Source of the DNA: Limnanthes douglasii subsp. nivea
Lineage: Eukaryota; Streptophyta; Magnoliopsida; Brassicales; Limnanthaceae
Direction: 5' to 3'
Assembly: GCA_036936605.1 (NCBI GenBank)
Contig: JAUPFV010000001.1
Location: forward strand, 114,026,771 to 114,090,770
DNA length: 64,000 nucleotides
Part shown: positions 33,612 to 62,491 of the stretch, piece after piece
How positions within the stretch are numbered: the stretch's first letter is position 1
Layout: each line of letters begins with the position of its first letter
Program-made: the position numbers and the translations under genes
The notes under the pieces: model-generated
The model's input: the letters and a program-made list of their open reading frames with translations, nothing else
The model's database searches: none
What the model was told of the DNA's origin: nothing

Positions 33612-33973
33612 GGTTTTATCATGTATTTTTCATTTTTTTGAACAATCAAAGTCCTTGGATGGAGAAGGCATGTTTTGTACTACTGTTCGGTTTAAGTCCA
33701 AACAGGTTTAATTTATCCAATTTCCTTTTTGTTTAATACTTTACCTTATATCTTTCATGGCTAATGTTTAATTAGCCCCTAGAATTTTAGAAGTATTGAA
33801 TTGAGAGTGCTTAATATCCCAATGACATGTATTTAATAGTCATAACCAACCACCAAGCTTATCTGATCTACTAAAGATCCGGGGTATTGAATAAGTGATT
33901 TATACTTGAATTAAATTGTAGTAAAATCACTCCAAATTTTTGAAGAATGCATTATGTATTATTGAAAAAAAAA

Positions 33974-34028
33974 CCGGACACTTCATTAAAACCTCCCCGC
34001 ACCACCAGGGTAGGAAAGAGTATGCCCC
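33974..34028. other. Conserved non-coding block, E1 copy
   Basis: This block reads CCGGACACTTCATTAAAACC, then CACCACCAGGGTAGGAAAGA and GTATGCC. It matches E3 at 49,033-49,086 and F2c at 25,175-25,226. The rest of 33,612-34,118 holds no coding feature. Confidence 0.65.
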
Positions 34029-34118
34029 TTAATATTTACATTGGTATTTAACAAGTAACTATTTACACAAAACATTATTCTAAATATAACCTGAGATGCT
34101 CAACATTCCATGAGTGCT

Positions 34119-37100
34119 TCAATGCTCTTCCTTCTTTATCTTGAAGCCTATATGTCCCAAGTTTGATTTTGTCGCAGACCTCATAAGGGCCTTCCTAGTT
34201 TGAAACCAATTTCCCGAACTGTTGTCCTTGGTATGTAAGAAGACTTTTCTCAACACCTTATCTCCTGGTTGAAAATCTCTTCTTTTAACCTTGGAGGAAA
34301 ATCTGCTCCTCATCAAACCTTGGTAGTATGTTGTTCTTAAGTGTGCTTTAACCCTTCTTTCTTCTACTAAGTCCAGCTGATTCCTGATTGCTATCTCACT
34401 ACCTTGTTCGGAATAGTTATGGACTCTGTATGGTGGTAAGGTAGCTTCTATGGGGGTAACTGCATTCATCCCATACACCAAGGAAAAAGCAGACTCTTGT
34501 GTAGCAGCTCGAGGAGTAGTTCGGTAGGCCCACAACACGTTTTGCAAATAGCTTGGCCATTTCCTCGCAACGCCATCTAAATTCTTTTTTAATCCGGACA
34601 AAATAGTCCTGTTTGCAACTTCAACTTGGCCGTTCGCTTGTGGATGGAAAGAAGAAGAAAAACAATGCTGAATACCTCTAGAGACACAAAAGTCCTCCAT
34701 ATCTTTGTTATCAAACTGTGGCCCATTGTCTGTAGTAATCTTTTGGGGGACTCCAAATCTGCAAAATATATTGGATAAGATAAATTTAATAATAGCCTTT
34801 GATGTGGTCCCTGCCAATGGAGCTGCTTCTATCCAATTTTAAAAATAGTCAATAGCGACTATAATAGTTCTGTATCCCCCGGATGCCATTGGTAGAGGTT
34901 CAACTAAATCCATCCCCCATTTAGTAAAAGGTATTGGCTCAGAAATAGACTCCATAGGTACTGCTGGCACATGAATTTTATTCCATACCTTTGACATGGA
35001 TCACATTTCTTCACCATTTCTTTAGCATCTGCCATTATGGATGGCCAATAATATCTAGCTAATAAGACTCTCCGGGTTAGTGCCCTGTACCCACAATGTG
35101 CTGAGCCCTCTCCATCATGTAGTTCAGATAAAACAACTTGGGATTCTTCAAACCTCAAACAACGTAGGAGAGGTCTACTGAAAGATTTTTGTAGAGAATT
35201 CCCCTTATCATCAGATACCACGTGCCTTGTATTTAATCTTTTTTTCTACAACTTTGTCCGAAGGTAAAGCCCCATCAGAACTATATTGAAAGAGGGTATA
35301 TCTCCAATCTTTAGGTTGAATCACCTGTATTCTCATGTTTTCCCCATCTTCTTTGTATGTGAATCCAAGGATAGGACTCAGAATATGCTATAGTTGCTAG
35401 AGTGTCTGCGAGTGTATTCTCCGATCTGGGAATATGTTCATAGAAAACACTTTTGAAGTCTGCTGCTACTTCTTTTAAAACGAGTAAGTACTTGACCAGT
35501 TGTTCCTTCTTGGCCTCAGACTAACCTTGAGCATGGTGGATGAGAAATTGAGAGTCACTCATTAACCGAACCATCTTAGCTCCACACATGAGGGCCAATT
35601 TAAGACCAGCTATAGCCACTTCATATTCAGACTCATTGTTAGAGGCCCTAAACTGAAAGCATATAGCCTGATACATTTTATCATCATACAGAGAGGTTAA
35701 GTAAATTCCAGCTCCACAAGCCATAGTGCTTGATCCACCATCAGTTCAGACCACCCACTCTTTCTTGGATTTATCATCTGAAGTTTGTTTAGAGCTCATT
35801 TCCGCATAAAATTCCACCAATAAATCAGCCATTGATTGAGCTTTAATAGCTGTTCGGGGGGCAAAATCGATATCGTAATTGCCCAATTCTACTGACCACT
35901 TGGTTATCTTGCTTGATATATCTGCTTTTTGAAGAACATTTTTTAGTGGGAAATATGTCCGGACAATGATAAAATAAGATTGAAAATACGGCCTCATCTT
36001 TCTTGCTGCAATGACTAAGGCTTGTGCAAACTTTTCCAACTTTAAATACATCTTTTTAACATCTAATAAACTTTTACTGATATAGTACACTGGACGAGGA
36101 TAATTTTCCACTTCTCTTACGAGGACAACACTTATAGCACATTCCCATACAACCATGTATACATAAATCTTTTGTCTTTGAATGGGCTTGAAAAGAGTCT
36201 TTGGTGAGGATAAGTGTTTCTCTATCTCAACGAAGGCCTGGTTGCACTGTGGGGACCAATTGAAGTCTTTAGCGTTTTTCAAGGTTTGAAAAAATGGAGC
36301 ACACTTGTCCGATGACCTTGAAATAAAACTGTTTAAGGCAACCAACCTTCCAGTGAGCCTTTGAACTTCTTTAATATTTCGAAGAGGATCCATTTCTAAT
36401 AGTGCATTAAGCTGATCCGGATCGGGCTGGATACCTTTCTCACTTATTACATAACCAAGAAACTTTCCAGATCGGTCCCCAAACACACATTTCTCTGGAT
36501 TTAATTTAAAGTTCAAAGCGGCTAAATTAGCAAATGTTTCTTGAAGATCAATTATGTGCAAATCCTCCTCCAGGCTTTTAACCATCATGTCATCTATGTA
36601 TACTTCTATATTTCTGCAGATCTGATTAGCAAAGTTTTGTTCACCAACCTCTGATAAGTAGCCCCATCATTCTTTAATCCGAAGGGCATTACTTTGTAGC
36701 AATGAAGACCTCTATCTGTAACAAAAGTAGTGTGATCTTGATCCTTCAGATCCACTTGTATCTGATTATACCCTAAGAAGGCATCCATGATGGACAACAA
36801 CTTATTTCCAGATGTAGATTCTACCAGCTGATCTATCTGAGGGACATGATAAAGATCCTTTGGGCAAGCTCTATTAAGGTCAGTGAAATCAATACACATA
36901 TGCCATTTTCCATTATTTTTCTTGACTAACACCGGATTAGCAGTCCATACATGATATTGGGAGTCTTTAATGTGTCCTATTTTGGTCAGCCGATCAACCT
37001 CTTGAACTTTCACATCTGCTTTTTCCTTAGAAAAAGCTTTTCTTTTCTGTACAAGAGGTGCAACATCACTCCGGATGGATAACTTGTGTGAAATAACGCT

Positions 37101-37142
37101 TGCTGGTACTCTGGTTACATCACTATTGCACCAAGCAAACAC
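34119..37142 (-). pseudogene. E1 pol relic: RT, two RNase H domains, integrase
   Basis: RT (37,142-36,585) shows WHMCIDFTDLNRACPKD, MDAFLGYNQI, DRGLHCYKVMPFGLKN and, after a frameshift near 36,590, the VYIDDM catalytic box. RNase H follows (YPRPVYYISKSLLDVKKMYL near 36,080), then a second, archaeal-like RNase H (35,724-35,521: MACGAGIYLTS and SNNESEYEVAIAGLKLAL), a Tat-lineage hallmark. Integrase (35,221-34,119) has the CDPCQRY end of its zinc finger and TTDNGPQFDNKDMEDF with GQVEVANR downstream, the second D and the E of the DDE set. Compared with E3 the start of RT and all of protease are missing. Stops and shifts separate the pieces. Confidence 0.85.
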
Positions 37143-37178
37143 ATGCTAATTGAGTCTTTTTTAAACTGAGGTTAATCT

Positions 37179-37385
37179 TTAGTGATTGCTCATTCTCCCC
37201 ATGATTGTCAGTATGATGGAGTACTGATGCTTCAGATTTCTCCTTGATACTTTTGTTTGCTTTTTTATGACCCTTAGCGCCTCTATCTCTGCCCTCATCT
37301 GATCTCGCTCCTCAATAGTGTATTCCTTAGTTTCCTTCACTGTTTCCACCTCAGGAGGTGGAGTACTTTGCTCATTTGGATTCAT
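37179..37385 (-). pseudogene. E1 gag, first codons only
   Basis: The ATG (37,385) starts MNPNEQSTPPPEVETVKETK, matching MNPDEQAVPPPL of E3 and MDANDQGTPPSVVETVREKK of E2, followed by the charged EERDQMRAEIEALR helix. Shortly after, at about 37,147, the sequence jumps to RT. The capsid and zinc-knuckle parts are deleted. Confidence 0.8.
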
Positions 37386-37457
37386 CCGAAATGTTTTTCT
37401 CACTGGTTTTAAATATAAAATTCAGGCATCATCGTGCTCCCACTGTGGTCACTAATT

Positions 37458-37822
37458 TGGTTTGGTTTATTTTGGACTGAGGGTAGTTTTGTAAAGTGTT
37501 TTTGTAAATTTTGGGTTTTTTGTGTTAAGTGTGGGGAGTAGTGAGATAATTAAGCAGCCTGCTAGTATTAAATTCTGATCACCCTCGTTAATGAGAGTGC
37601 TTGGGGTATTTATACCTTAATTATGGACCCATGGGCTTATCGGGTCGGGTTGTGAAACAGACTCGAATTTAAAGACCCATTAGTGTTTAAGTTGATTAGG
37701 AAATAGCTTAGTCAAAAGTTACATACATTTGTCTTGTTCGGATTTATAGTGGTGTGATATGGTCCGAATTACCCCTGTCCGGATTAATGGATAGGCTGTG
37801 ATTGTAATATCTGAACTCATAA
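37458..37822 (-). repeat. E1 5' LTR, with primer site at 37,437-37,454
   Basis: This 365-bp LTR corresponds to 30,046-30,410. Three bases to its left the minus strand reads TAGTGACCACAGTGGGAG, the E-family primer site with the first bases changed (TGGCG to TAGTG, two C/G-to-T/A changes). The minus strand has a TATAAATA box as in E3. The outer edge reads CTCATAA on the plus strand, one base off the expected CTCATCA. Confidence 0.85.
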
Positions 37823-38094
37823 ATTGTAATATCTTTTTTCTATAGATGCCTTTTTACTTAGCATTTAAGAAATCATTTTTTTATCATCAAATTGAATTGA
37901 ATGTAGAAAGGTTTTATTTCTCCTGTGTTCTTATAAGTCATATTTGACTTGAAATATTACTTATATAAGAACTAAACAAAACAAATTCGAAGTGGAACTA
38001 CTTTAACTTCATTGGTGTGTTTAAAGAATACTAACACCTTAAATATAAACAAGGTACTTATATAATGTGACACTTGGAATAATGTTGTGCATAG
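37823..38094 (-). other. Short F2b interval between E1 and E2
   Basis: These 272 bp carry TTCGAAGTGGAA, TAACACC and GACACTTGGAATAATG words like the interval between antisense ORF and integrase in F2c. They are what remains of F2b's own non-coding interval. No coding potential. Confidence 0.5.
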
Positions 38095-38461
38095 TGATGA
38101 GTTCGGATATTACATACACAACCCACCAACTAATCCGGACAAGGGTAATTTGGACAATATCACACCACTATAAAATCTGAACAAGACAAATGTGAACACC
38201 TTTTGACTAAGTTATTTGCTAATCTACTTAAAAACTAATGGGTCCTTAAACTCGATCCGGTTTCTCATCTTGACCCGGTAAGCCCATGGGTTGTTAATTA
38301 CAAGTATAAATATCCCAACCACTCTCATTAATGAGGGTGATCAACATTTAATACAAGTAGGGTTCTTAATGATCTCACTACTCCTCACACTAAACACAAA
38401 ATATCTCAAACTTACCAAAACACTTTACCAAACTACCTCCAGCCCAAAAGAAACCAAACCA
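38095..38461 (+). repeat. E2 5' LTR with TATA box
   Basis: The 367-bp LTR begins TGATGAGTTCGGATATTAC and ends CCAAACCA. TATAAATA lies at 38,305-38,312, about 210 bp from the start, separating U3 from R/U5. It is an inverted copy of the E1 LTR 272 bp away. Confidence 0.9.
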
Positions 38462-38464
38462 AAT

Positions 38465-38482
38465 TGGCGACCACAATGGGAG
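38465..38482 (+). promoter_or_regulatory. E2 primer-binding site, tRNA-Arg type
   Basis: TGGCGACCACAATGGGAG follows the LTR after the spacer AAT. It differs by one base from the E3 site, which fits the 3' end of a plant arginine tRNA as I recall it. A tRNA-Arg primer is typical of the Tat/Ogre group. Confidence 0.7.
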
Positions 38483-38534
38483 CACGAAGGTGCCTGAATT
38501 TTACATTAAATACCAGTAAAAATAACCAGTTCAG

Positions 38535-40200
38535 ATGGATGCAAACGACCAAGGTACTCCTCCCTCTGTGGTGGAAACGGTCAGGGAAAAAAAGGAATAC
38601 ACCTTTTGAGGAGCGAGATAAGTTGAGAGCAGAGATAGAAGCACCAAAGGCCATAAAACAAGCAGAAAAGAGGATCAGGGAGAAATCAGGGGTGTCAGCT
38701 ATTCATCCTACTGACAATCCTGGGGAGAATGATCTATCAATAAAGACTTATCTTAGTTAAAAAAAAAACTCATCTCAGCTTTAAGAAGACACATCGATCT
38801 AGGCCCATTGAAAGTTCAGATTCAGAGTCCTCCAGTAGCTCTTCGAATGAGGCTGAGATTTAAGAATATTTAATATCAAGAAGTGATGAAAGGAGATCTA
38901 TAAAAAATATGAAGTTAATAAAAAATTATTCAAGAAAGAGGGATAGACATGGTAGGCTTAAAAGGCATATGGGCAGAGAGTCATCCCACAGGCATGTTGA
39001 TCAGTTGCTGATAGATCCATTTGCTTTTCAGACCAAACCAGGTAATTTTGTAACGCCTAATGAAGATACAGTCTTTAGTCGTAGTAAGAAATGGAGGCAG
39101 TCACCTTTGTCTGCCAAAATACTGTCCGAAAACCTACCTAAAAGGTTTGACAGCTCTAAAATGGAAATATATGATGGAAGTCGAGATCCGGACAACCATT
39201 TGGAGCTATTCAAGAACTTCATGATGAATTTCGATGATGATGACAAACTCTTGTGCAGAGCCTTCTCCCAAAATTTCATAGGAAGTGCTCTTAAGTGGTA
39301 TAACAGCTTACCTCAAATGTGTATTAGAAACTTTGATACTTTCTGGGTTGCCTTCCGAAGGAAATATGTTGGAAGTAAATAAGTGAAGGGAAATGGAGAT
39401 ACCATTATCCGTTGTGCCCAAGAACCAAATAAGTCTTTAAAGGACTACATAAGTGGATTTGTGAATACAAATAACGGATTAGCAGATTGCTTCGAACAGG
39501 TGGTAATTGGTTCTCTGAGACAGGGGTTGAATCCTGGAAACCTGGCTGATTCTGTAACCAGGAAAAAACTATGATGTGGGGTGGCCTATTGAATCAAGTA
39601 GGAAAAAAGATTAATGTAGAAGAAACAAAGAAGACGAGGGTACGCCATCAAGTAAGGTCCACTATAACAGCTCCTCCGGCCGCTAACCAGTCTGGATACA
39701 AGGCTAAGGAGATCGCACAAGGATCCTACCGGACTAAACAAACTCAGTCCAACCATAATCAGGCTCAGAGCCAACAGTCAAGAGGTAAAAGAGGTCATTG
39801 GGTTCAACCGGAGTGGTTTGCAGAGTTAAGGGAGAATGTGGCCACAATCTATGATAAGGCTAAGGAAGAAGTTCATTTTCGAAAACCGGTAGCCTTGTAG
39901 TCTTGCAGAGAAAGCTGAAATAATTATTTCTACCAATATCACAATGATATAGGCCATAACACTCAAGACTGCATAGCATTGAAACAGGAAGTCCAGAACC
40001 TTATTGAAAGAGGCAAATTGGGAGCTTTTGTCAAAAAAAGAAGTGGAAACAGGCTTGACAATGCCCCTCGGACGGGCCCTACAAACAATGATGGAACATC
40101 TGCTCAAGAAGGGACAATGGTGATTCTTGAAAGATTCGATATTGATACTGAGTACCTGGATCCTGATCCAACTTGGAATAAGGTGGGGGTCATAATAGAA
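38535..40200 (+). pseudogene. E2 gag relic
   Basis: The ATG at 38,535 begins MDANDQGTPPSVVETVREKK. The capsid-like core at 38,909-39,382 reads SENLPKRFDSSKMEIYDGSR and SALKWYNSLPQ, the retrotransposon gag pattern (W..LP). Later NGLADCFEQ and LRQGLNPGNLADSVTRKK follow, and a zinc-knuckle region near 39,920-40,000 whose first cysteines are altered (NNYFYQYHNDIGHNTQDC). Nonsense codons at about 38,603, 38,758, 39,380 and 39,898 break the frame. Confidence 0.8.
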
Positions 40201-40224
40201 AAAACTAGGACGGTGTCCTGACTG

Positions 40225-41808
40225 ATGAGTTTCTTTGAATCACTAACCATCTTTGGAGGAGATATTGTGACAACACCCACCCCTTCATCAAGAAAAAGGC
40301 ATGTACACAGTTTGGCCACTCAATTGGAGGGGGAGTGCCAAACTCCTTTTCCATTTATAGTTTCTGATGAGGATGACTTGAGGAATATTGCTGGGCCCCA
40401 TGAGGATGCAGTGGTTATAGGAGCATCTATTGGGGGCAATGATATACGCCAAATTTTGATAGATACGGGCACTTCGGCGAACATCCTCTTCTTAAGATCC
40501 TATAAACAAATGAGGAATCCGGCTGTTATTCAACACTCAAACAGAACTATTGTAGGCTTCACATGTAGCTCTGCGGATGTAATTGGGGAGTTTGAATAAG
40601 AGGTGTTGTTAGGGAAGGGGCCTTTTAAAAAGATGGTGAGAGTACTATTCGTTGTGGTAGACTTCCCCACATCATACAATGCAAATTTTGGGAGGTCTTG
40701 GCTTTCCAAAATGCATGTTGTGGCCTCAAAAGTTCATCAATGTTTAAAATATGCAATTCAAGAACAAGTATGTGTTGTCTGAAGTAGTCAGAAGATAGTC
40801 AGGGAGTGATATGCAACTACTTTTGCTCCTAAGACTTTAGGGGAAGTTCGGATTAATGAAGATTAGAAGTTAGTGGAGCCTTCTGAGGTGGAGAATAAGA
40901 TTGATGACCCCAGATAGGCTCCTAGTGTTATAATACAAGTTGAAGAAATTGAAACCCACTCCCTTGCAAAGGGTAGAAATATCAAGATTAATTCCAAGTT
41001 GGCACCAGAGTTGAAAAAGAAATTGTTGTTCTTTTTACTAAACAATCAGCATGTCTTCGCTTGGTGCAATAGTGATGTAACCGGAGTACCCGTAATTATT
41101 ATCTCATACAAGTTATCCATCCAGAGTGATGTTGCACCTGCTGTATAGAAAAGAAGAGCTTTTTCTAAGGAAAAAGAAGATGTGATAATCTAATAGGTTG
41201 ATCGGCTTACCAAGATGGGACATATAAAGGAATCCCAGTATCTTTTATGGACCGCCAATCCGTTGTTAGTCAAGAAAAAGAACGGGAAATGGCATATGTG
41301 CATTGATTTCACTGAACTTAGCAGAGCTTTCCTAAAATATCTCTATCCAGTCCCCCGGATAGATCAGTTGGTGGACTCTATGTCTGGAAACTAGTTGTTG
41401 TCCATCATGGATGCTTTCTCTGGGTACAACCAGATACATGTGGATCTGAAAGATCAAGATCACACTACCTTTATAACAGATAGAGGTCTCCATTGCTACA
41501 AGGTGATGCCCTTTGGGTTAAAGAATATTGGGGCTACTTATCAGAGGTTGGTGTACAAATCATTCATTGATCAGATTTGGCAGGAATATGAAAGTATACA
41601 TAGATGACACGATGGTTAAAAGCTTGGATGAGGATTTGCACATAATTGATCTTCAATAAACATTTACTAATTTAGCAGATGTGAATTTGAAATTAAACCC
41701 AGAAAAATATGTGTTTCTGGTCCAATCTGGAAAGTTTCTGGGTCATGTGATAAGTGAGAAAGCCCGATCCGGATCAGCTTAATGCCCTATTGGAAATGGA
41801 TCCTACTC
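40225..41808 (+). pseudogene. E2 protease and truncated RT
   Basis: The protease shows ILIDTGTSANILFLRS with the catalytic DTG near 40,455. RT starts near 41,050 (QHVFAWCNSD) and continues through KWHMCIDFTELSRAF, IMDAFSGYNQIHVDLKDQDH and YKVMPFGLKNIGATYQRLV. A frameshift follows next to the VYIDD box near 41,600. Translation ends at the deletion junction at about 41,808. Stops at 40,600, 40,783 and elsewhere show it is dead. Confidence 0.8.
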
Positions 41809-41810
41809 AA

Positions 41811-44150
41811 TGTTTTTTGGTACAAAATTCCATCTAACACCATATAGCCAAATACTTTGCCTATAAGCTTCTTAACTAATTTTATATCTTCATGCAGCGT
41901 TCCTCTTAACAAGAAATTCAGAATGTCAGTTTTCCAATCACCTCGGATTGTATCTGGAGTGACGAATACCTCCTCAATGCGCTCACATTGATCTGAATGG
42001 GTTTAAAAATCAAAGGACTCTACTGTAATAAAATCCAATGGTATTCATCTGTGTAATCCACTGTTGCCAAAGAATCAACATCTGTATTATTTCATCGGCT
42101 AATATGTTCTATAGTAACATGATCAAACACGAGAGTCAAAGTCTGAAGCTCTCGAAGATACAAAATTAATTTGTCATTTTTAGCTTCGGAATTTCCAGCC
42201 ACTTGATTTGCTACTAACTGGGAATCTGTTTCCAAACGAACTGAAGTTGGCCCACAAATATTTGCCAGTTGTAAACCAGTTAATCAACCTTCATACTCAG
42301 CTTCATTATTCGAAGCATGAAACCCGAAGTTAATGGCTTGAAACATTGCTTCCCCAGATAGAGAAATCTGTTGAACGTTGGATCCTAAAATGTTGGAACC
42401 CTCATAAGTTTGAACTAACCACGTCGAACTACTTGGCAAAACGTCATTGTTAATCTCTTCATCTGATCTGCTTGAATGGAATTCAACAAGAAAATCAGCT
42501 AAGGCTTGGTGTTTGAGGTGAAAATATGATGTTAAAATATCCCAACTCAACTGACCACTTAGTCATCCTCCTAGAAATATCTGGACGGTGTATAACATTT
42601 TTCAGTGGGAGTAAAGTTCGAACCTCAAAAGTGTGAGCTTGAAAATAAGGGTGAATTTTTCTAGGCAGCCACTACTAAAGCGAGAGCCATTTTTTTGAGC
42701 TTCAAGTATCTTTTTTCTGCTGCAACCAGACTCTTGTTGATATAATACACCGACTTTGAAATTCCCGAATCTTCACTTATCAACACTGCATTTATCGTAA
42801 AATCTGATACTGCAATATACAAAGAGAGTTGTTCTCCACTTGGAGGCTTGGATAGTATTTATGGGGATAACAATAAATCTTTGATGATTGAAAATGCTGC
42901 TTCACATTCTGAAGTCCATTTAAACTCTTTTGGCTTGCGTAACACTTGAAAGAAAGGAAAACATTTGTCTGAAAATCTAGAAATGAATATGTTAAGAGCA
43001 GCTAAACTCCCTGTTAAAATTTGCACTTCTTTGATAGTTCGAGGAGATTTCATTGATACCACAACTTTTAGTTGTTCAAGGTCAACTTTTATTCTCTTTT
43101 CACTAATAAATTAACCCAAAAACGTTCCTGATTGAACTCCAAAGGTACACTTTTCTGGATTCAAATTTAGCTTTATTGCTCTTACATTAAAAAAAGTCTC
43201 CTCTAAATTTTCCAAGTGTGCATCCTCTGTTAAGATTTTAAATGTTTCTTCCAATATGAGAAGTGAAGGATTTATTCATTAGTCTATGATATGTGGTGCC
43301 AACATTTTTTACCCAAGGGGCTAACCCTATAACAATGCAAGCCTCGATCCGTGATGAAGGTAGTACTCTCTTGATCCTTCAGATCCATATGAATTTGATT
43401 ATACCCTGCAAAAGCATCCATAACAGTCAATATTTTATTTCCCAAAGTGGAATCAATCAGTTTGTCTATTAGAGGAACGGGGAACGAGTCTTTAGGACAA
43501 GCTCAATTCAGATCTGTGAAAACGATGCACATTCTCTATTTCTCATTCTTTTTTCTTAAGAACCAATGGGTTTTCTATCTATAAGGGATATTGCGAGTCC
43601 CTTATATATCCGAACTTTGATAAGCAATCCACCTGGGAAACAATTGCTTCTACATCTTTTATTTTCCAAGAAAAACATCAAAATTGTGAGGCAAGAACTG
43701 CAAAAACTGTTGACGTAAAATTAGGGTTAGTAAAGTTTATATTTGAAGTACTTTTCCATCAGGAAGAGCATATTCCTCTATATTTTCACTTATTGGCTAA
43801 AAACCCAGGGTTTCCTTCGGATCGTGAACCCCCTCTTCGAGGTCCGAGGTCAACCCCCTTAGTTGCTATTCATTCATTTTATCACCACTGCCCGACCCTC
43901 GAATTCGAAGAGTTGTGGTATAAGATTATCTAGCAACCTTTTAATCACTTTAGACGATCCCCACTCGATATCTGATGACATATTTAAAGCTGGTATGTTG
44001 ACACAACTTCATACATCCTCGATAGACAAGATCTTCCAAAAATAACATTGCAGCTTGTTGGACAATCTACCACCATAAAAAGTACATAAAGCTTCTTTCT
44101 GAAAGACCCATTTCCCAAAATTACCTCTCACTCGAAGTCCCCAATTACTT
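41811..44150 (-). pseudogene. F2b pol relic: RT and two RNase H domains
   Basis: RT is heavily decayed around 43,750-43,200 but keeps MDAFAGYNQIHMDLKDQ and LIDSTLGNKI-like segments. The thumb at 43,062-42,859 reads SPRTIKEVQILTGSLAALNI and ISRFSDKCFPFFQVL. RNase H follows (42,830-42,580), then the archaeal-like RNase H (42,440-42,080: STWLVQTYEGSN and GFHASNNEAEYEG, LRLETDSQLVANQVAG-like). It ends in the pre-integrase linker DGILYQKT at 41,811, exactly where E2 begins. Integrase is missing from this element. Confidence 0.8.
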
Positions 44151-44828: not shown

Positions 44829-45204
44829 TGGTGAGGTTTATTTTAAACTGAGGGTAATTTTGTCAAGTGTGTTGGAGAGTTTTAAGGGTATTAAATGTTT
44901 GGGTGTTTTGTAGTGAGAGATTTCAGCTACCTGGTTATATTAAATGTTCATTACCCTCATTAATGAAAGTAGTTGAGTATTTATACCCTTAATTATGGAC
45001 CCATGGGCTTTCGGTAAAGTTGTGAAACCGGGTCGAGTTTAAAGACTCATTAATTTTCAAGTAGATTAGCACCTAGCTTAGTCAAAAGGTATTTAGTGTT
45101 TTAATACTTTTGTCCTATCCGGATAGTTCAGTGGGCACTTATTGTCCGAATCACCTCTGTCCGGATTTCTCAGATTGTAGTGGTGGATATATCAGCACTC
45201 ATCA
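44829..45204 (-). repeat. E3 3' LTR
   Basis: The plus strand begins TGGTGAGGTTTATTTT and ends GCACTCATCA. By eye it differs from its partner at 54,805-55,181 at about 30 positions, more than that partner differs from the E4 LTR. Confidence 0.95.
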
Positions 45205-45341
45205 GTAGCCCTTTTTTTAGGCTTTATCAAAGGTCTTTGGCAGGGCTAAAAAACTCATTTAGTTAGTAACAACATTTTCCAGCCCGTTTATGTGTTTGGT
45301 TCAAGGTTTATCCGGATTGATTTCTTCTTTGGATCGTGGGA

Positions 45342-45522
45342 CACATGTCACATTTTTATTTGTCCTACCAGCCGTTTTCTCCCTAGAACACCGCTCCCAC
45401 TAAGCTTGAAAAGTAACTTCTGCATTTAATGTTTCTTACGTCAGTGCGGTTTTCAATCATTACCTAAATCTTTTCGGCTTCTCCTATGTATCAGTAGCTT
45501 TTTCCCTTACTAATATATAAAT
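45342..45522 (+). promoter_or_regulatory. Promoter of E3 antisense ORF
   Basis: GACACATGTCAC at 45,340-45,351 holds a CACATG E-box, ACGTCA lies near 45,437 and TATATAAAT at 45,514-45,522. The TATA box is 95 bp before the ATG at 45,617 and a CT-rich leader lies between. The arrangement is a complete plant core promoter inside the element, facing away from the 3' LTR and antisense to pol. Confidence 0.6.
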
Positions 45523-45616
45523 TTCTTTCTTTTACTGTTTACCATCTTCACCACTCTACAATTTCTTCTCTCAGAGCTTTTTACCTTTTCTTTCAAAACC
45601 TCTCTTGGATAGTTTT

Positions 45617-48590
45617 ATGTTCACAACGAGAAATGATCTTGTAAAAGGCGGTTGGTTGAATTTTTCTGAACTAGAGAAAGCAAAAAAAGTCGAACGAGAG
45701 AGACGCATTGCTGTTGGTCTTCCAGTCTCTCTCAGAGATAAGTCTGATAAACCATCCTTAGAAGCTGAACAAGGATTGTCTTCTACCAAAAGCGCAAAAC
45801 CGAAACATTTATTCAAGCCAAACCTCTCGCCAATCCCATCAGGCTCCTCTGTTCAGGAGTCTCAACCTTTTAATGCTCAAGAGAAAGGGGTATCAAGTGT
45901 TAGGAAACCTTCTCCGTTCATTGCCATGTGATCTGACATCGAAAATCCCCAGAGAAAACCAACCCTCGCCGGACAACACGCTTTGTAAAAGGCCAAGCAA
46001 CTGGCTCACAACCAAAGTCCTCCAAACCGGGGGCCTCTAAGTCAGCTTTCAAAGATAAAGCCTCTGTATCAGAGATATCTATAAGAGCCTCAAGAGACAA
46101 ACCCTCCGTATCGGAGGCAACTAAAATAACTTCTCAAACAAAGTCCTCTGCAGCTGAACCCCAACCGGACACCAGACCTGTAGAAGAAACTGGTGCTCAG
46201 CCATCCGGACAGAGCATTGAGCCACAAGCTGACACTCTTCCATCCTCAACAACAATCAAACCTTCCATAATGATGGAAGAAGTAATGGAAGATAATATCA
46301 AAGAGGCCCCATTCGAGACTGAAACCTCTGGACAAACTGAGGACGCTACCTCTGACAAAAAAGGAAAGGGAAAAGTGAAGGTGGGATTGGCTCATCCGGA
46401 GCTACCAGAGTGCTTGGAGGGAAAGGTGGGACCTTGATTTTAGAAGGTCAATGTGCAGTATCTGCTGGCCATGCAGAACATCAACTATGTTTATACTCAT
46501 ACCGCTGAGCTAGGCCGGATCCGAACTAAGTGGGGGATCCCCAAATCAGTGAAGGTGAGAATACCAGTCACACCGGAAACTCCGATGGACTACAAGCTCA
46601 ATGAGATTTTCATTTACACTGAGCTATTTAACTGGGGGCTCAGATTCCCCTTGGACCCAGAAATCGTCAGGTATTTTCACCTGATCAAGCTTTGTCCAAG
46701 CCAGCTAAGTCCAAATGCTTGGTATACTCTCCTTACCTGCATAATGGCATCGAGGCATTCCGGCATTCCTCTCCCCATGGAGCAATTCGCCGCAGTAGCT
46801 AGCGTGTGCAAAAACCATCACATCCCATTCTACCACTACAACATGGATGACAACTTCAAAGTGGTGGATGACTTGTTAGAGTCAGATAAAAACTGGAAGA
46901 CTCAGTTCCTATTCATTAGTGGGACATCGGAGAATGGGAGAAACATCAAGGCTAATGTTAACCCTAGCATGCTCACGAGTAGGTGGAAGAGCACAAGTAA
47001 GTATTCGGTTTTTTTTGCATTTTTCTCATTCTTATTTTCACAAAATTTCCACTCAAGAATCACCCATTTTCTCATGTCAGTATTGCCGAAGGAGTTCACC
47101 GGCTACTTGGAAGAGGGGCGGACTACATGTGCCAAGCTAAATGCCTGGGCTGCTGAACGTTGGGGGAACGCCTTCCACAACTGTTTTACTTCTGGCAACT
47201 TGGTGAGATCTCACTTATGGAATACCACGAGCCGGATAGATCTCACCTAGGAGGAATTGACTGCACCACATCCCTCAGCTGTCACACTTAAGAAAACAAA
47301 GGAAAACAATGGAAAATGGCCTTGCCCTCAAGAGCCAAAGGCCCTAGTAAAATGAAAGGGAAGGGCAAGAAAAAGAATGCTGCAGCAGAGGCAGTTCGGG
47401 GTGCTGCAGAAGAGACTTGTCCGGTCAATCAAAGAGGGCGGAATCAAGGAGGGATTGATGCTACTTTGCTCGAAGTAGTTAAGGATGAGACTATTAAGGA
47501 GGCAGGTGAATCTCAAAATCCACCAAGACCTCCTAAAAAGGACCGCAAGAGGGGAGCAAACAACGATGAGAGGACTATTAAGAAGAAAAAGGTCACCTCG
47601 GGGGAAGAAGTAATCATTCGCCCTTCGGAGCCTCTACCTCCGGCAGACCCAACTGATCCCACCTTAGCAGAGCAGATTCCCACTGATCTATAATCCAGGG
47701 AAGGTACCAGAGGGGATATTGACGGAGTAGACATCAGTGGCCTCTAAAACATTGGTCTCTATTTCATTGATTTTTAGAAAGATGACTTTGATGGCCCTTA
47801 CCTTCCTCCAAGATCCTCCAATATGGTGACTTACAATGAAAAGTCCTTTACTGTCTCTGGGGAACACGATGTGGTGACCCACTCTCTCCTGGGCCATATT
47901 CAGCCGGTACTCAACTTGGAAAGGCAAGTAAAAAATTAGTATACCCTCATCAATAGCCTCAACACAGACAAAGAGACTTTGTCAACAGACCTCCTTAATG
48001 CCAACCAGAGTATTGTGGCACTGAATAAGGAGCTTGAGGAGTTGAAGAACGAGAAGGAAGATCTGTCAACCAAGATGGTCACTTCGGAGAAGGCTAACAC
48101 AGAGCTCCAAACTAAGTGCTCCGCTTTGGAAAAAGATCTCTCCACCTTGCAGGGAGATTTGAAGACTAAAGACGATGTCATCCAAACCCTTTCGGATGAC
48201 AAGATTTCCCTTGAAGAGGTTGTGTCCAAGGAAACCAAGGAGAAGGAAGACTTGGTGAAGGAGCAGTAAAATAGGATTTATACCAGCATAGATAAGTACA
48301 CCAACGAGGTGATTAATTCGTTGGAGAAAATGTATGCTAAAGTAAAATCTGATATGGTGCTACTCTTTCACGAGAAGTTTCTGAGGAGGACTCTTGGTCC
48401 CTTTTGGGAATACGTGGAGTACAAGGACATCCCGTTCCATACACTGGCAGATGGTGATAAAAAGAATTACACTACTGGGATCGACTCTACCAGTGATGAG
48501 GAAGAAGGAATCGGAGAGAGTTCAAGTGCTGAACTCAAAGGTCCTAAGAAAAAAGATGATGCAGGAACATCCGAAGGGAATAAGCCCTGA
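45617..48590 (+). pseudogene. E3 antisense ORF (putative gypsy-type transposon domain), best copy
   Basis: The ATG begins MFTTRNDLVKGGWLNFSELE, followed by a Ser/Pro/Lys-rich linker with stops near 45,930. The conserved domain (46,450-46,996) reads MQYLLAMQNINYVYTHTAEL, WGIPKSVKVRIPVTPETPMD, GLRFPLDPEIVRYFHLIKL, SQLSPNAWYTLLTC and IPLPMEQFAAVASVCKNHHI. This fits my recollection of the putative gypsy-type transposon domain. An intron (46,997-47,080) joins it to ILPKEFTGYLEEGRTTCAKL. A TAG at 47,248 ends the frame. Beyond it lie a basic region, a long coiled coil (about 47,980-48,270) and an acidic tail (EEEGIGESSSAEL) to TGA at 48,588. Many later stops stand where E1 has Gln codons. The function is unknown; strand and splicing imply its own transcript. 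Confidence 0.85.
46997..47080 (+). other. Conserved intron in E3 antisense ORF
   Basis: Donor GTAAGTATT after AAGAGCACAA, acceptor CTCATGTCAG, 84 nt and T-rich. Splicing restores the frame ACA A|TA TTG. It is functional only in the plus-strand direction, because the minus strand has no matching splice signals. Confidence 0.8.
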
Positions 48591-49175
48591 GGTTTTAACT
48601 ATATTTTCTTACTTGTTTTTCTTAATCTTGTGATATACTAAATTCCTTGGATGGCCAAGGCATTTTTGTAACCATGTCCGGTTTGAGTCTGGTTAAGCCT
48701 TTCTTTAAACTTAAACTCCTTGGATGACCAAGGAAAATTTTATGTTCTAGTATTATCATCCGGATTTTAGCCGGATTGGCTTACCTTGCTCAATTTTTGC
48801 TCTGTTTCATACTTGCTTAAATTTAATGGCTAATGTTTAAAGAGCCCTTATTTATTTTACAAGTATTTAAGATGAGAGTGTTTAAAATCTCCGATGACAT
48901 GTATTTAATGGTCATTATTCAACCAAATTAATCCGATCTGCCAAAGATTCTTAGAAATTTGAAAACTTTAAAGAAATTGTAATCAAACCACTCCGAACAT
49001 TTTTAAAAATGTATCAAATTTTATTAAAAAAACCAGACACCTCATTAAAACCTCTCCGCGCCACCAAGGTAGGAAAGAGTATGCCCATAATATTTACATG
49101 GACTTTAAACAAGTAAATATTTACACAAATTGCATTCCAGATATAACCGGAGGTGTTCAATATTCCAAGGGTGTT
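48591..49175. other. E3 interval between converging ORFs
   Basis: It contains two imperfect copies of an ACTCCTTGGATG.CCAAGG unit (near 48,640 and 48,715) and the conserved block at 49,033-49,086 (GACACCTCATTAAAACCTCT then CCACCAAGGTAGGAAAGAGT). No ORF. Confidence 0.6.
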
Positions 49176-52100
49176 TTAAGATTCTTCCATCTTTGTCTTG
49201 AAGCGTGTATGTCCCAGGCTTGAGTTTTTTTTGGAGACCTCATAAGGCCTTTCCCAGTTTGGAGCTAGCTTGCCGAACTGCTTCTCCTTAGTATACAAGA
49301 AAATCTTTCTCAATACTTTATCCCCTGACCAAAAATCCCTTCTTTTGATTTTGGAAGCAAATCTTCTCCTCATCAAGCCTTGGTAATGGGTGGTTCTAAG
49401 ATGAGCCTTAACTATCTTTTCTTCTATCAAGTCTAACTGACTTCTGATTGCCACTTCATTAGCATGTTCAGAATAATTATGGACTTTGTATGATGGAAGA
49501 GTTGTCTCTATAGGAGCAATTGCATCCATCCCATATACTAAGGCAAAAGGAGATTCTTAAGTAGCAGCTCCAGGAGTAGTCTGGTATGACCATAACACTT
49601 CTTGTAAATAGTTTGGCCACTTTCCTGCAGCCCCTTCTACTCGACCATTTTCTTGTGGGTGGAAATGAGAAGAAAAACAATGTTGAATGCCCCAAGAGGC
49701 ACATAAATTCTCCATATCCTTGTTATCGAATTGTGGCCCATTATCTGTGGACAAATGTTAGATAGGATAAATTTTATAACAGCTTTCAAAGTAGTTCCTG
49801 CCAGTGGGGCCGCTTCTATCCATTTTGAGAAATAATCAATGGCTACAATAATAGTCATGCACCGTCCGGATGCCATTGATAGAGGCCCTACTAAATCCAG
49901 TCCCCAAAGAGCAAAAGGAACCGGTTCACAAATCAATTCCAAAGGAACAACTGGGATATGAATTTCATTACCATATCCTTGGCATCTGTCATTATGGATG
50001 GCCAATAGTATCCGGCCAAAAAAACTCTCCTGGTTAAAGCTTTATAACCACATTGTGCTAATCCTTTTCCATCACGTAGTTCGGATAGCACAATTTGAGA
50101 CTCTTCAACCCCCAAACAACGCAAAAGAGGTCTAATAAACGACTTCTTATAAAGGACATCTCTTATGATTAAGAAACCACGAGCCCTATGCTTCACTTTC
50201 CTTACTACAACTTTCTCCGGAGGCAAAATGCCATCAGAGATGTATTGAAGAAAGGGATATCTCCAGTCTTTGGGTTGAACTACTTGTATACTTAAACTTC
50301 CTCCTCTTCCTTTCTCTAATCGGGTTGTGTGGATGGACATTCTTGCACGTGAATCCATGGGTAGGACTCAGAGTATGCTACGGTTTCCAAAGAGTCTGCT
50401 AGTGTGTTCTCTGATCTAGGTATATGCTCATAGCTAATATGTTTGAAGTTAGCTGCCACTTCTTTAAGGATAAACAAGTATTTGGTCAACTGCTCTTTTT
50501 TTGCCTCAGATTGACCTTAGGCATGATGGATAAGAAGCTGAGAATATCTCATCAACCTGACTCTTTTAGCCCCACACAGAAAATCTAGCTTCAGACCAGC
50601 TATAGCAGCCTCATACTCGAACTCATTGTTAGAAGCCCTAAAAGCAAAACATATAGCATGGTATAACTTATCGCCATACGGAGAGGTTAAACATATCCCA
50701 ACACCACAAACCATGGTACTTGATCTACCATCTGTTCGGACAACCAATACCTTCTTAGTTTTCTCATCTGTAGCTTGCTTAGTACTTCTACCCTAATGGA
50801 ACTCAACCAGGAAATCAACAACAAATTGAGCTTTGATTGCAGTCCGGGGGGCGAAATCAATATCATAATCACCCAATTATACTGACCACTTGGTCATCTT
50901 TCTTAATATGTCTTCCTTCTGAAGAACATTTTTCAAAGGAAAAGACGTCCGGACGATAATATAATGAGACTGGAAATACGGCCTCATTTTTCTGGCAGCA
51001 ATCACCAAGGCTAGTGCCAATTTTTCAAGCTTTAAGTACCTTTTTTCAGCCTCCATCAGACTCTTGCTGATATAGTACACCGGACGAGGATAATTGTCCA
51101 CCTCTCTTACCAGCACCGCACTTATAGCACATTCAGACACAGCTAAGTATATGTACAAGTATTTCTCTGTCAACAGGTTTGGAAATGGTTTTGGGGGAAG
51201 ATAAATGCTTTTTTATTTCATTAAACGCCTGGTCGCACTGTGGAGACCAGTTAAAGTATTTAGCACATTTTAAAGTCTGAAAAAACAGGGCTCACATGTC
51301 CGAAGACCTTGAAATAAAACGATTTAATGCAGCCAACCTTCCTGTCAACCTTTGTACTTCTTTAACATTCCGAGGAGGATCCATTTTTAACAAGGCATCA
51401 AATTGGTCCGGATCAGGCTGTATCCCTTTCTCACTTATCACATACCCCTAAAAATTTCCGGATTGCACCCCAAACACACATTTTTCTGGATTAAATTTTA
51501 AATTAACCTTTGCAAGTTGGCAAAAATTTCTTGAAGATCAGCTAGGTGCAACTCTTCTTCCACTATTTTTACCATAATGTCATCAATACATACTTCCATA
51601 TGCATCCTAATCTGATCAGCAAATGCTTTGCTTACCAACCTCTGATAGGTAGCCCCAACATTTTTCAACCCAAAAGGCATCACCTTGTAAGAATGGAGGC
51701 CCCTATCTGTAACAAAAGTAGTGTGTTCCTGGCCCTTCGAATACACCTGTATCTGGTTATAACCGGAGAAGGCATCCATGAAGGACAATAACTTGTTCCC
51801 CGATGTGGAGTCTACCAACTGATCTATTTAGGGACTGGATAGAGATCTTTTGGGCAAGCTTTGTTGAGGTCAGTAAAGTCGATACACATACACCATTTTC
51901 CATTCTTTTTCTTTACTAACACTGGGTTGGCTGTCCATAAAAGATATTGAGACTCCTTTATGTGTCCCATCTTGGTAAGTCGGTCAACCTCTTGAACTAT
52001 GACATCGACTTTTTCCTTAGAAAAATCTCTCCTTCTTTACACAACAGGCACAACATCTCTTCGGATACATAACTGGTGTGATATAACATTCGCAGGTACT

Positions 52101-53040
52101 ACGGTCACATCAACATTGCACCAAGCAAAAACATGTTGGTGGTTTGCCAAAAAGAACAACTTTTTCTTCGATTCTGGTGCCATCTTGGAGCCGATTTTAA
52201 CACTCATTCCTTCAGCCAGAGAGTGGGTTTCAACTTTTTCAATTGGTATCAAAACACCAGGGGTCTCTCTGAGGTCATCAATTTCACCCTCACCCTCAAA
52301 GGGCCCCAACAACTGCTAATCTTCATTTATCCGGACTGCCCCCAGAGGTTTAGGGGCAAGTGCAGTTGCATAACATTCTCTTGCTATTTTTTGGCTCCTC
52401 CGGACAACTCCCACTTGTCATTGAACTGCATACTTTGAACATTGGTGAACTGTTGAAACCACAACACGCATCCTAGAGAGCCAAGACCTCCTAAAGATCG
52501 CATTATAACATATGGGGAAATCTACCACAACGAAAAGTACCCTGACCATCTTCTTAAAGGCCATTTTCCCAACAATACCTCCTCCTCACATTCTCCGATA
52601 ACATCTGCAGAGCTCCCTGTGAAGACCATAATGGATCTGTTCGAACGCTGAATCACTGCTGGATTTTGCATCTATTTATAGGAACTTAAAAAGAGAATAT
52701 TGGCTGAGCTGCCAGTGTCAATCAAAATTCGCATGATGTCGTTGCGCCCAATCGATGCTCCTATCACCACAACATCCTCATGAGGACCAACTATGTCCCT
52801 TAGATCATCTTCATCAAAAACAATTAAGGGAAAAGGAATTTGGGACTGATAGGAAGACATGCCTCCCTTCAACTGAGTAGCTCGAGTGTGAACATGCCTC
52901 TTTCTTGAAGAAGAATTTGGCATTGTCATAGTGTCTCCTCCGAATATAGTAAGTGACTCAAAAAGGCTTATGAGTTCAGACACTGTCTTGGTATGTTCTG
53001 TTATAACCCTTACTTTATTCCGGGTTGGAACAGGATCCAA
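49176..53040 (-). pseudogene. E3 pol relic: protease, RT, two RNase H domains, integrase
   Basis: Protease: ILIDTGSSANILFLSSYK near 52,700 with catalytic DTG. RT: NHQHVFAWCNVDVT (52,150), FMDAFSGYNQI, DRGLHSYKVMPFGLKN, VCIDDIMVK near 51,590, where the usual YIDD is CIDD. RNase H: 51,173-50,877 (YPRPVYYISKSLMEAEKRYL). Archaeal-like RNase H: 50,747-50,517 (VVRTDGRSSTMVCGVGICLT, SNNEFEYEAAIAGLKL). Integrase: 50,260-49,176, with WGLDLVGPLSMASGRCM and AIDYFSKWIEAAP, STDNGPQFDNKDMENLC and GRVEGA, and a C-terminal LAPNWERPYEVSK. The order RT-RNH-aRNH-INT is the Tat type. Stops in the RT region (about 51,800-52,040) and elsewhere inactivate it. Confidence 0.9.
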
Positions 53041-54733
53041 ATATTCTGATCGACATCAAATCTTTCAATGATTACCATGGTCCCGTCCGGAGCAGATGTC
53101 CCTACATTGTTCGTTAGGCCAGTCTGGTGAGAATTGTCAGGCCTATTTCTACTTCTTCTCTTGACATAAGCTCCCAACTTTCCCATTTCAATCAGATTTT
53201 GCACCTCTTGCTTCAAAGCGATGCAATCTTCGGTGTTATGGCCAATATCATGATGATATTGGCAAAAACAAGTATTACGACTTTCCCTAGGAGATTGAAG
53301 TGTTGTCGGCTTCTTGAAATGTACCTCATCTTTTGTTTTGTCATAGATGGTTGCCATATTTTCTTTCAATTCAGCAAACCACTCTGGTTGTATCCAAGGT
53401 CCTCGTTTATTTCTGGACTGCTGGCTCTGAGCTGGAGCTGGGTGAGATTGAGTCTGTTTGGCCTTGTTGGGCCCTTGTCCAGATTTTTTGGCCTTATATC
53501 CGGACTGGTTCTGGTTTGGTGCAGCTCGGGCAGATCTCACTTGCCTCTGTACCCTAGTATTTTTTATTTCATCTACATTTATTTGCTTTCCCACCTGGTT
53601 TAGCAAACCACCCCAAGTCATAGTCTTCTTCCTGGTTACTGAATCGGCCAGATTTCCAAGGTTTAATCCTTGTCTCAAAGAAGCTATTGCTACCTACCAA
53701 ATCAATCAGCTAACCCATTCTTTGTGTTCACGAACCGTCTTATATAGTCTTTCAAAGATTCGTTTGGTTCTTGGGAACAATGGATGATAGTATCTTCATT
53801 TTCCTTCACCTCCTTACTCCCTACAAACTGCCTTCGGAAGGCCACCCAAAACGTGTCAAAGTTTCTGATACAACCCTGTGGTAAGCTGTTGTACCATTTC
53901 AAAGCACTTCCTGTAAAAGATTGAGAGAAGGCTCTACAAAGCAGTTTGTCATCATCATCAAAATTCATCATAACTTTTTTAAACTGTTCCAGATGGTTGT
54001 CCGGATCTTTGCTCCCATCATACTTATCCATTTTAGTACTGTCAAACCTCTTAGGAAGGTTTCCGGACAGTATCTTGGATGACAATGGGGATTGCCTCCA
54101 ATTCCGTCCATAACTAAAAACAGTTTCTTCATTAGGTGTTGCAAAAATACCTGGCTCATCATGGAAAGCAAAGGGATCCATCTGCAGCTGATCAACATGC
54201 GTACGACTATGACTGTGGCTGTGAGACGACCCTTTTCCCAGATGTCTCTTTAATCTCCCATGTCTATTCCTCTTTCTTGAGTAATTTTTAACCAACTTTT
54301 GTTTCTTCTTGGATCTCCCCTCATCGTTGTTGGATGACAAGGATTCCTCAAGCCCATCCTCATTCGATGAGCTACTAGAGGACTCAAACTCTGAGCTCTC
54401 CACCGGTTTGGACCGGTGAGATTTCTTGAAACTCACATGGGTCTTTATTGTACTCAAGTGAGTCTTTGCTGATGGGTCATTCTCCCTTGGGTTGTCAGTA
54501 TGGTGAATGGCTGACACTTTCGAATTTTCCTTTAAACCCAACTCTACTTTTGACTTTTTCTTTAAACCCAACTCTACTTTCGACTTTTCCTTTAAACCCA
54601 ACTATGCCTTTTTAGTGGCCCTCAAAGCTTTTATTTCAGCTTTCAGCCTGTCTCGTTCTTCGACCGTGTACTCATCGTTCTCTCCCACCACTTCTATCAA
54701 AGGTGGTGGGACTGCTTGCTCGTCCGGATTCAT
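53010..54733 (-). pseudogene. E3 gag, nearly complete but with stops
   Basis: The ATG at 54,733 begins MNPDEQAVPPPLIEVVGEND, then a charged helix and a TAG at about 54,605. From there a 299-codon frame is open: three copies of GLKEKSKVEL-like repeats, a Ser/Asp-rich stretch, a HSHSHSRTHVDQ histidine-rich patch, and the gag core LPKRFDSTKMDKYDGSKDPD with SALKWYNSLPQGCIRNFDTF. A second frame (53,678-53,010) has LRQGLNLGNLADSVTRKK and the zinc knuckle CQYHHDIGHNTEDC. Gag packages the element RNA in cytoplasmic particles. Only a few lesions separate it from an open frame. Confidence 0.88.
54519..54608 (-). repeat. In-frame 30-bp triplication in E3 gag
   Basis: Three successive 30-bp units start at 54,519, 54,549 and 54,579 and share TTTAAACCCAACTCTACTT. 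They encode the ten-residue motif GLKEKSKVEL three times. E1 and E2 have no such triplication at this place. Confidence 0.85.
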
Positions 54734-54783
54734 CTGAACTGGTTTTTCTTGCTGGTTTGAATGTTAGATTCAGGAACCTTCTC

Positions 54784-54801
54784 CTCCCACTGTGGTCGCC
54801 A
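54784..54801 (-). promoter_or_regulatory. E3 primer-binding site, tRNA-Arg type
   Basis: The minus strand reads TGGCGACCACAGTGGGAG three bases after the 5' LTR. From memory this is complementary to the 3' end of a plant arginine tRNA including CCA. It is the unmutated form of the sites in E1 and E2. Confidence 0.75.
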
Positions 54802-54804
54802 ATT

Positions 54805-55181
54805 TGGTGAGGTTTATTTTAACCTGAGGGTAATTTTGTCAAGTGTTCTAGAGAGTTTTAAGGGTATTAAATGTTTGGGTGTTTTGTAGTGAGATATTTA
54901 AGCTTCCTGGTTGTATTGAATGTTCATTACCCTCATTAATGAAAGTAGTTGGGTATTTATACCCTTAATTATAGACCCATGGGCTTTCGGGCTGAGTTGT
55001 GAAACCGGGTCGAGTTTAAAGACACATTAGTTTTCAAGTAGATTAGCACCTAGCTTAGTCAAAAGGTGTTTAGTGTTTTAATACTTTTGTCCTGTCCGGA
55101 TAGTTCAGTGGGCACTTATTGTCCGAATTACCCCTGTCCGGTTTTCTTAGAGAGTAATGGTGGATAAATTCGGACTCATCA
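54805..55181 (-). repeat. E3 5' LTR with TATA box
   Basis: The minus strand runs TGATGAGTCC to CCTCACCA. A TATAAATA box (54,954-54,961) lies in the palindrome GGGTATTTATACCC, about 220 bp from the LTR start. U3 carries three CGGACA words (CCGGACAGG, TTCGGACAA, TCCGGACAGG), also seen in the sister LTRs. Confidence 0.95.
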
Positions 55182-61956: not shown

Positions 61957-62333
61957 TGGTGTGGATTATTTTAACCTGAGGGTAATTTTGTCAAGTGTTC
62001 TAGAGAGTTTTAAGGGTATTAAATGTTTGGGTGTTTTGTAGTGAGATATTTAAGCTTCCTGGTTGTATTGAATGTTCATTACCCTCATTAATGAAAGTAG
62101 TTGGGTATTTATACCCTTAATTATAGACCCATGGGCTTTCGGGCTGAGTTGTGAAACCGGGTCGAGTTTAAAGACACATTAGTTTTCAAGTAGATTAGCA
62201 CCTAGCTTAGTCAAAAGGTGTTTAGTGTTTTAATACTTTTGTCCTGTCCGGATAGTTCAGTGGGCACTTATTGTCCGAATTACCCCTGTCCGGTTTTCTT
62301 AGTGAGCAGTGGTGAATAATTCCGGACTCACCA
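61957..62333 (-). repeat. E4 3' LTR
   Basis: The 377-bp LTR begins TGGTGTGGATTATTTTAACC on the plus strand and ends GGACTCACCA. Its central 337 bp are identical by eye to the E3 5' LTR; differences occur only near both ends. Confidence 0.92.
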
Positions 62334-62491
62334 GTAGCCATTTTTTTAGGTTTTGTCAAAGATCTTTGGCAGCACTAAAAAACTCACTTAGCCAACAACA
62401 ACATTTTCCTGATCGCTCATGTATTCAGTTCAAGGTTTATCAGGACTGATTCCTTTTCAGATTTCCAAGAGTTTTTCTTTGGATCGTGGGA

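Follow-up and report, generated by a model that had tools for sequence, protein, structure and literature searches.

The stretch analysed here, called the window throughout, comprises 64,000 nucleotides (nt) of the 1.78-Gb genome assembly of Limnanthes douglasii subsp. nivea and is a nest of Ty3/gypsy retrotransposons with pol mostly on the minus strand. Using tblastn, we located five copies of an antisense open reading frame (ORF) on the plus strand, at 22609–23359 (F2c), at 27843–28585 (F2b), in the elements designated E1 and E3, and at the window end (E4), which bears out the count and strand given in a preliminary description of this DNA. We consider it highly probable that these copies represent a spliced accessory gene carried antisense by Retand-like elements. 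Their exons and introns, and the presumed promoter of E3, are as follows.

22609–23127, plus strand: F2c exon 1, broken (tblastn)
23128–23201, plus strand: F2c intron, 74 nt, acceptor corrected to 23201
23202–23359, plus strand: F2c, start of exon 2
27843–28363, plus strand: F2b exon 1, broken (tblastn)
28364–28447, plus strand: F2b intron, 84 nt
28448–28585, plus strand: F2b, start of exon 2, broken
30877–32116, plus strand: E1 exon 1, broken
32117–32195, plus strand: E1 intron, 79 nt, GTAAGT..CAG, with branch-point-like CTGAC/CTAAT at −26/−22
32196–33611, plus strand: E1 exon 2 and C-terminal part, broken
45513–45521, plus strand: TATA box of the presumed antisense promoter of E3, aligned with the E1 TATA run at 30776
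45617–46996, plus strand: E3 exon 1, disrupted by stops and a frameshift, with the TRP28-related part at 46444–46996
46997–47080, plus strand: E3 intron, 84 nt, GTAAGT..CAG, phase 1
47081–48590, plus strand: E3 exon 2, including the basic and coiled C-terminal part; broken, with an in-frame TAG at 47248–47250
62688–63998, plus strand: E4 exon 1, broken; the window end cuts E4 before the intron site

In the four copies that reach the intron site, a GTAAGT donor lies directly after WKST or WRSI in phase 1 (23128 in F2c, 28364 in F2b, 32117 in E1, and 46997 in E3). With the acceptors listed above, 18 residues, counting the junction codon, precede a conserved [KR]L in all four. Since this holds only if the F2c intron is 74 nt long, the 64 nt proposed earlier for that copy, a reading that breaks the frame, was replaced, while the shared codon, phase, and donor and the lengths of 84, 79, and 84 nt for F2b, E1, and E3 stood. 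All four introns show the GT..AG ends, kept phase, and in-frame exon joining of the U2 type. The plus strand of the window holds 14 GTAAGT motifs, and each of the four informative copies has one at the same codon and phase; given the near-saturated synonymous sites of E1 and E3 (proportion of synonymous differences, pS, 0.85), the shared donor position is, by this comparison, more than chance. On the pol-sense strand, the intron ends read CT..AC, and genomic sense RNA should therefore be unable to splice the intron ordinarily. The earlier proposal that the splice signals work only in the antisense direction thus holds, and its companion, an antisense intron-bearing gene common to two families in the window, is supported by homologous phase-1 introns in four of four copies.

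After alignment, the intron interiors of E1 and E3 are 57% identical, a score that 143 of 500 shuffles reach; the last 120 nt of exon 1 are 78% identical and the first 120 nt of exon 2 72%. Because silent sites are near saturation across the same stretch, it appears that the protein, donor, and acceptor were kept while the intron interior was not. The T content of the four introns is 45–51%, and that of the E1 and E3 exons 21–26%. We also considered a second intron of 48 nt (GTGAG..TAG) where exon 2 ends but rejected it, as it falls below plausible plant intron size and the segment codes for a conserved block.

Between E1 and E3, the TRP28-related part has a proportion of nonsynonymous differences (pN) of 0.12 and a pN/pS of 0.14 (bootstrap 0.10–0.19), and the pol genes of the same two elements give 0.20 (0.12–0.33) for reverse transcriptase (RT), 0.28 for integrase (INT), and 0.42 for RT–ribonuclease H (RH). 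By this measure, purifying selection has acted on the TRP28-related part no less strongly than on RT. The ratio is 0.21 at the start of exon 2 and 0.39, 0.23, 0.29, and 0.24 in the parts past an in-frame TAG that the two copies share. Read in the other two forward frames, exon 1 gives a pN/pS of 1.36; the reverse frames give 1.97, 1.19, and 0.29, the last of which we take as the shadow of codon-position matching.

Further copies were drawn from the Limnanthes genome as the best-scoring ones and not as a random sample. The E3 ORF, a query that spans the intron, led to 29 other copies (143 of 100,747 candidates scored), and the intron is kept in all of them, at 84 nt in 28 and 75 nt in one, with GT..AG in 27; because the query spanned the intron, this sample is biased towards 84 nt. 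Exon 1 alone led to 29 copies (150 of 77,985 candidates scored), six of which repeat the first set. Here, too, the stretch is kept in 29 of 29, its length ranging from 72 to 86 nt; 27 have GT..AG, and the donor is GTAAGT in 18 and GTAAAT in eight. Once the repeats are dropped, from the distinct count as from the tree described below, GT..AG stands at the intron site in 48 of 52 distinct further copies. Counted as three among these are L040, L042, and L053, which are near-identical, lie within ~130 kb of contig C223, and are probably products of segmental duplication, not separate insertions. The GTAAAT donor occurs in L036, L038, L047, L051, and L057–L060; since seven of the eight, all except L051, group in the exon tree, the donor appears to have changed within a lineage.

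The preliminary description had also called the intron fixed, which did not survive a search of the same genome with the two exon ends joined without the intron (up to two mismatches). This pattern matched 13 places and its reversed control none, and because such copies exist in the same genome the intron is best described as old but not fixed. In all 10 intron-less copies analysed, the frame crosses the junction as W-K-S-T-(Q in nine, H in one)-L-P-K-E, and the spacing from GGTGGAA to TGCCGAAGGAG is 11 nt, that of spliced E1 and E3 (unspliced, 90 and 95 nt). They form one clade of 10 (support 0.97) in an exon-letter tree of 64 copies rooted on E1, a tree of E-type copies only, where they branch early beside intron-bearing copies. 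The C-terminal region is at least partly present in all 10, and most meet stops or frameshifts within 60–75 residues, as old copies would. Exon 1 has a pN/pS of 0.24 within the clade and 0.14 within intron-bearing copies. The simplest history would be a single loss followed by continued selection on the gene, and the clean absence of the intron from one subfamily suggests that the antisense message was made and spliced.

The integrase lies opposite the antisense gene in the three intron-less copies that were checked further on this point. In L072 it is cut short near a stretch resembling a long terminal repeat (LTR), and L073 has an extra, weaker same-strand integrase match further away. The LTR-like stretch (L072:597–974) is 84% identical to the 3′LTR of E3, lies just past the integrase remnant, and is probably another insertion.

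A similar junction may extend to a distant protein family. Protein searches returned 3,204 relatives among 7,999 scored candidates, and the best 120 of them lie on chromosome-size contigs; a third search with the window copies as the only queries gave four matches, all already in the first. No relatives were found on viral or prokaryote contigs. The distant relatives are ~30% identical to the E3 protein, and the family points to plants as their hosts. The junction was read in 100 of 122 database proteins, the 22 in which the motif was not found being left out. Its residue is R in 77, H in 11, C in nine, P in two, and L in one, followed by E in 99; as these five residues are one-step neighbours of a CGY codon, the distribution fits a phase-1 donor C|GTGAG. 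Conservation of these ORFs falls at the junction, and 58 of the 100 end 22 residues on (W counted). Four others read through and meet the following conserved block after 28 codons (84 nt, counted on the letters). In this stretch, residues whose codons carry T in second position make up 0.49, compared with 0.27 before and 0.22–0.28 after it. These patterns suggest that the distant family has an 84-nt phase-1 intron at the matching codon, and across the copies and relatives compared here the antisense intron is, judging by sequence, old and widespread.

The identity of the domain follows from relatives of the window gene. E3 exon 1 scores 19.5 bits against PF04195 (Transposase_28, TRP28), below the curated cut-off of 26.2, and the database relatives P0001, P0013, and P0053 exceed that cut-off with 35.4–39.7 bits; because the score falls under the cut-off but homologues pass, we call the gene TRP28-related. 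The PF04195 model has 27 matches in the Limnanthes genome (150 of 20,529 candidates scored) and none in 14 control genomes. The best match of a PDB sequence search, to a designed protein (E 0.019), was not convincing, two predicted structures had low confidence (mean predicted local distance difference test score, pLDDT, 50.8 and 48.5), and Rfam gave no matches at gathering scores. Placed between integrase and 3′LTR, the gene appears to correspond to the antisense TRP28 ORF reported between pol and 3′LTR in 97% of recent Retand clusters (Vicient 2025, PMC11963269).

The host elements of these copies have the following features.

44829–55181, minus strand (pol sense): E3, a Retand-like LTR element with an LTR pair; gag, RT, and INT by Pfam and tblastn
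44829–45209 and 54805–55181: LTRs of E3, 92.1% identical to each other, with a 5-bp GTAGC on both flanks abutting the TG..CA ends
49182–49822, minus strand: E3 integrase (tblastn)
50319–50516: E3 RVT_3 stretch, score under the cut-off
30046–37822, minus strand (pol sense): E1, a second LTR element whose LTRs are 93.9% identical; ATTGT on both flanks, a likely target-site duplication, the outer LTR end decayed and not CA
34122–34838, minus strand, opposite the antisense gene: E1 integrase core (PF00665)
35314–35745, minus strand: additional ribonuclease H (aRH) of E1 between RH and INT (PF00075 and PF13456 stretches)
37144–37281: E1 gag, a short match only
25335–26036, minus strand: integrase adjoining the F2c antisense gene (tblastn)

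In E1, RT/RH (35746–36666) is followed by aRH, the integrase zinc domain (34907–35245), and then integrase. The two aRH stretches score slightly under their curated cut-offs, at 23.9 bits for PF00075 (25.8) and 21.0 for PF13456 (21.6), with E of 5e-5 and 3.3e-4. The order of RT, RH, second RNase H, and integrase is common to Ogre and Retand (PMC6317226). E1 thus has the second RNase H between RH and INT expected of Retand, and in each of the two elements, E1 and E3, an antisense ORF separates pol from the 3′LTR. The E3 LTR of 381 bp and the ~3,970 bp from its integrase match to the LTR lie inside the Retand ranges of 315–1,194 bp for LTRs and 2,933–6,566 bp for the pol–3′LTR region (PMC11963269). 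As the target-site scan tried many offsets, a single 5-bp flank match is weak; the E3 repeat abuts the TG..CA ends, and the E1 repeat does so on one side only. Both bounded by LTR pairs, E1 and E3 are, by these sequence features, Ty3/gypsy elements like those of the Retand lineage of Tat. Of the earlier statement that every copy lies opposite its own pol, the part on E1 and E3 stands (LTR pairs, with INT and RT on the minus strand) and that on F2c is supported by its minus-strand integrase; for F2b its own pol was not established, and the pol of E4 lies outside the window. A tandem array of ~61–62-nt units (24756–25163), a feature common in the Retand pol–3′LTR region, separates the F2c antisense gene from its integrase. 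A related element, E2 (38092–41814), has gag and RT on the plus strand, inverted relative to its neighbours.

Upstream of the antisense gene, the E3 TATA box (45513) sits just outside the 3′LTR, which ends at ~45209. The ATG codons of E1 (30877) and E3 (45617) are aligned and open proteins starting MFTT(K/R)N.LVKGGWL; E4 has its ATG at 62688 and a deletion at the expected TATA position. The E4 upstream region (62330–62760) also contains a G-box-like stretch, ACACGTGT, aligned with variants in E1 and E3. Among the further Limnanthes copies, an aligned TATA-like motif is present in 21 of 29 (E3-ORF query) and 24 of 29 (exon-1 query), and an aligned ATG in 26 of 29 and 22 of 29, respectively. The TATA and ATG aligned between E1 and E3 fit a promoter of the gene's own. 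The independent transcription unit announced in the preliminary description is, on this sequence evidence, a probable one.

From these observations we infer an accessory gene, opposite gag-pol and between pol and 3′LTR, with an N-terminal part, a TRP28-related domain, and a basic and coiled C-terminal part. Transcription would most likely start from its own TATA promoter beside the 3′LTR. Splicing of the antisense RNA is very likely, and the transcript would be spliced once, at a U2-type, phase-1 intron of 72–86 nt, and then translated. The sense genomic RNA, which reads the intron backwards, would stay unspliced and so carry the intron through retrotransposition. Loss would have occurred once, in the ancestor of one subfamily and with nucleotide-exact spacing, after which that subfamily would have spread. 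The intron may have been lost when a spliced antisense mRNA was reverse-transcribed and recombined into a replicating copy. This would be the simplest route to exactly this length, and we rate it at about an even chance; for the broader proposal, that the element machinery occasionally reverse-transcribes the spliced antisense mRNA and that the product recombines into replicating copies, we find belief and doubt evenly balanced.

Several observations weigh against this account. All five window copies are broken genes. In E1 (32363–32365) and E3 (47248–47250), the in-frame TAG follows a VRSHLWN block and lies within constrained coding; since it is rare in the other Limnanthes copies (0 of 29 and 2 of 29 in the two sets), it is not a fixed feature, and the site was probably hit more than once. 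A simple branch-point match is missing from two of the four window introns (E3 and F2c), and the five intron pairs other than E1/E3 have identities of 0.62–0.71 against shuffled means of 0.60–0.61, none over the shuffled maximum. Among recent copies, conservation of the 170 nt upstream does not clearly exceed that of the intron (0.852 vs 0.848 in the E3-ORF set and 0.829 vs 0.797 in the exon-1 set). The distant family is known here from protein letters alone. Finally, the junction letters of eight of the 10 intron-less copies, TACTCAGT, also admit a reading in which the final four bases of the intron (TCAG) were kept and 2 nt were lost; because of this alternative parse, the loss is demonstrably exact in length only.

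The stretch between the exons might instead be a fast-evolving protein linker, through which the 84 nt of E3, free of stops, would simply be read. The E3 frame is indeed open here, 84 is divisible by three and is the length of 28 of the 29 close copies, and four proteins of the distant family likewise read through. However, lengths of 74 and 79 nt in the window and of 76, 77, 79, 83, 85, and 86 nt elsewhere in the genome break the frame while the surrounding exon is constrained, the E1/E3 interior is at shuffled-level identity although GT and AG are kept, and the frame is continuous across the junction in the intron-less subfamily. A linker is therefore hardly credible. It is also very improbable that the intron is real but that the antisense strand acts as RNA, through double-stranded RNA and silencing, with the protein irrelevant. 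Regulation by double-stranded RNA is raised as a possibility in a review (PMC7264820), but codon constraint in the antisense frame is similar to that on RT (0.14 vs 0.20) and persists within the intron-less subfamily (0.24).

Two further alternatives concern the history of the intron. An ancestral absence, with the intron gained within these elements, is improbable: no point in support of gain was found, the exon tree being confined to E-type copies, and the same codon and phase are shared by E1 (the root), F2b, F2c, and, by inference, the distant family. Ordinary DNA deletion without any spliced RNA, an origin of the intron-less clade that is compatible with a spliced gene, is possible, though we lean towards doubting it. 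The junction letters fit the TCAG remnant with its 2-nt loss, and with one clade a single event suffices; yet 10 of 10 copies match the spliced length to the exact nucleotide, and in frame, and the parse needs two steps that jointly restore the frame.

Part of this picture is already in print, namely antisense TRP28 ORFs, their distribution in Retand, and an own promoter in Grande. The Retand elements of Vicient 2025 are alike in their long pol–3′LTR region with tandem repeats; that survey counts ORFs, does not treat antisense splicing, and has the word "intron" nowhere in its main text (PMC11963269). Grande gene23 is likewise an antisense gene with its own upstream promoter, and its product is a nuclear protein (Gomez-Orte et al. 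2013, as recounted in PMC7264820); by analogy, the protein described here may be a nuclear regulator. The same review urges authors to seek antisense and spliced transcripts. HBZ of HTLV-1 and APH-2 of HTLV-2 are antisense genes at the 3′ end of a retroelement with spliced antisense mRNAs, as described in PMC3185765 and PMC10186651; their transcripts start inside the 3′LTR, whereas here the presumed TATA box lies between 3′LTR and ORF, and the likeness noted here is one of organisation. A short spliceosomal intron also interrupts an antisense homing endonuclease gene in a mobile group I intron, although element kind, host, and protein are unrelated (PMC9548176). According to a 2025 review, introns are generally missing from plant LTR retrotransposons, Ogre and EVADE being the exceptions (PMC12786077; for Ogre also PMC6317226). 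As these sources describe them, the introns of Ogre and EVADE serve the elements' own polyprotein or subgenomic RNAs, whereas the present intron should be spliceable only from antisense RNA. In the literature searched, no title or abstract opening reports an intron in the antisense gene, and papers on Grande and extra ORFs may hold a prior mention.

In print, antisense ORFs are treated as a hallmark of Retand without an assigned function. A conserved intron that can be spliced only in the antisense direction would provide an exact, strand-specific marker, and a read across the junction would prove expression of the antisense gene. Surveys based on ORF length can under-count and truncate these antisense proteins. 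The orientation in which the gene came into the element, or has resided there, would be one that shields introns. The copies that lack the intron may testify to reverse transcription of the antisense mRNA in the past; if so, antisense splicing would have left a natural record in their subfamily, and the antisense strand would act as an additional, minor template in the retrotransposon life cycle.

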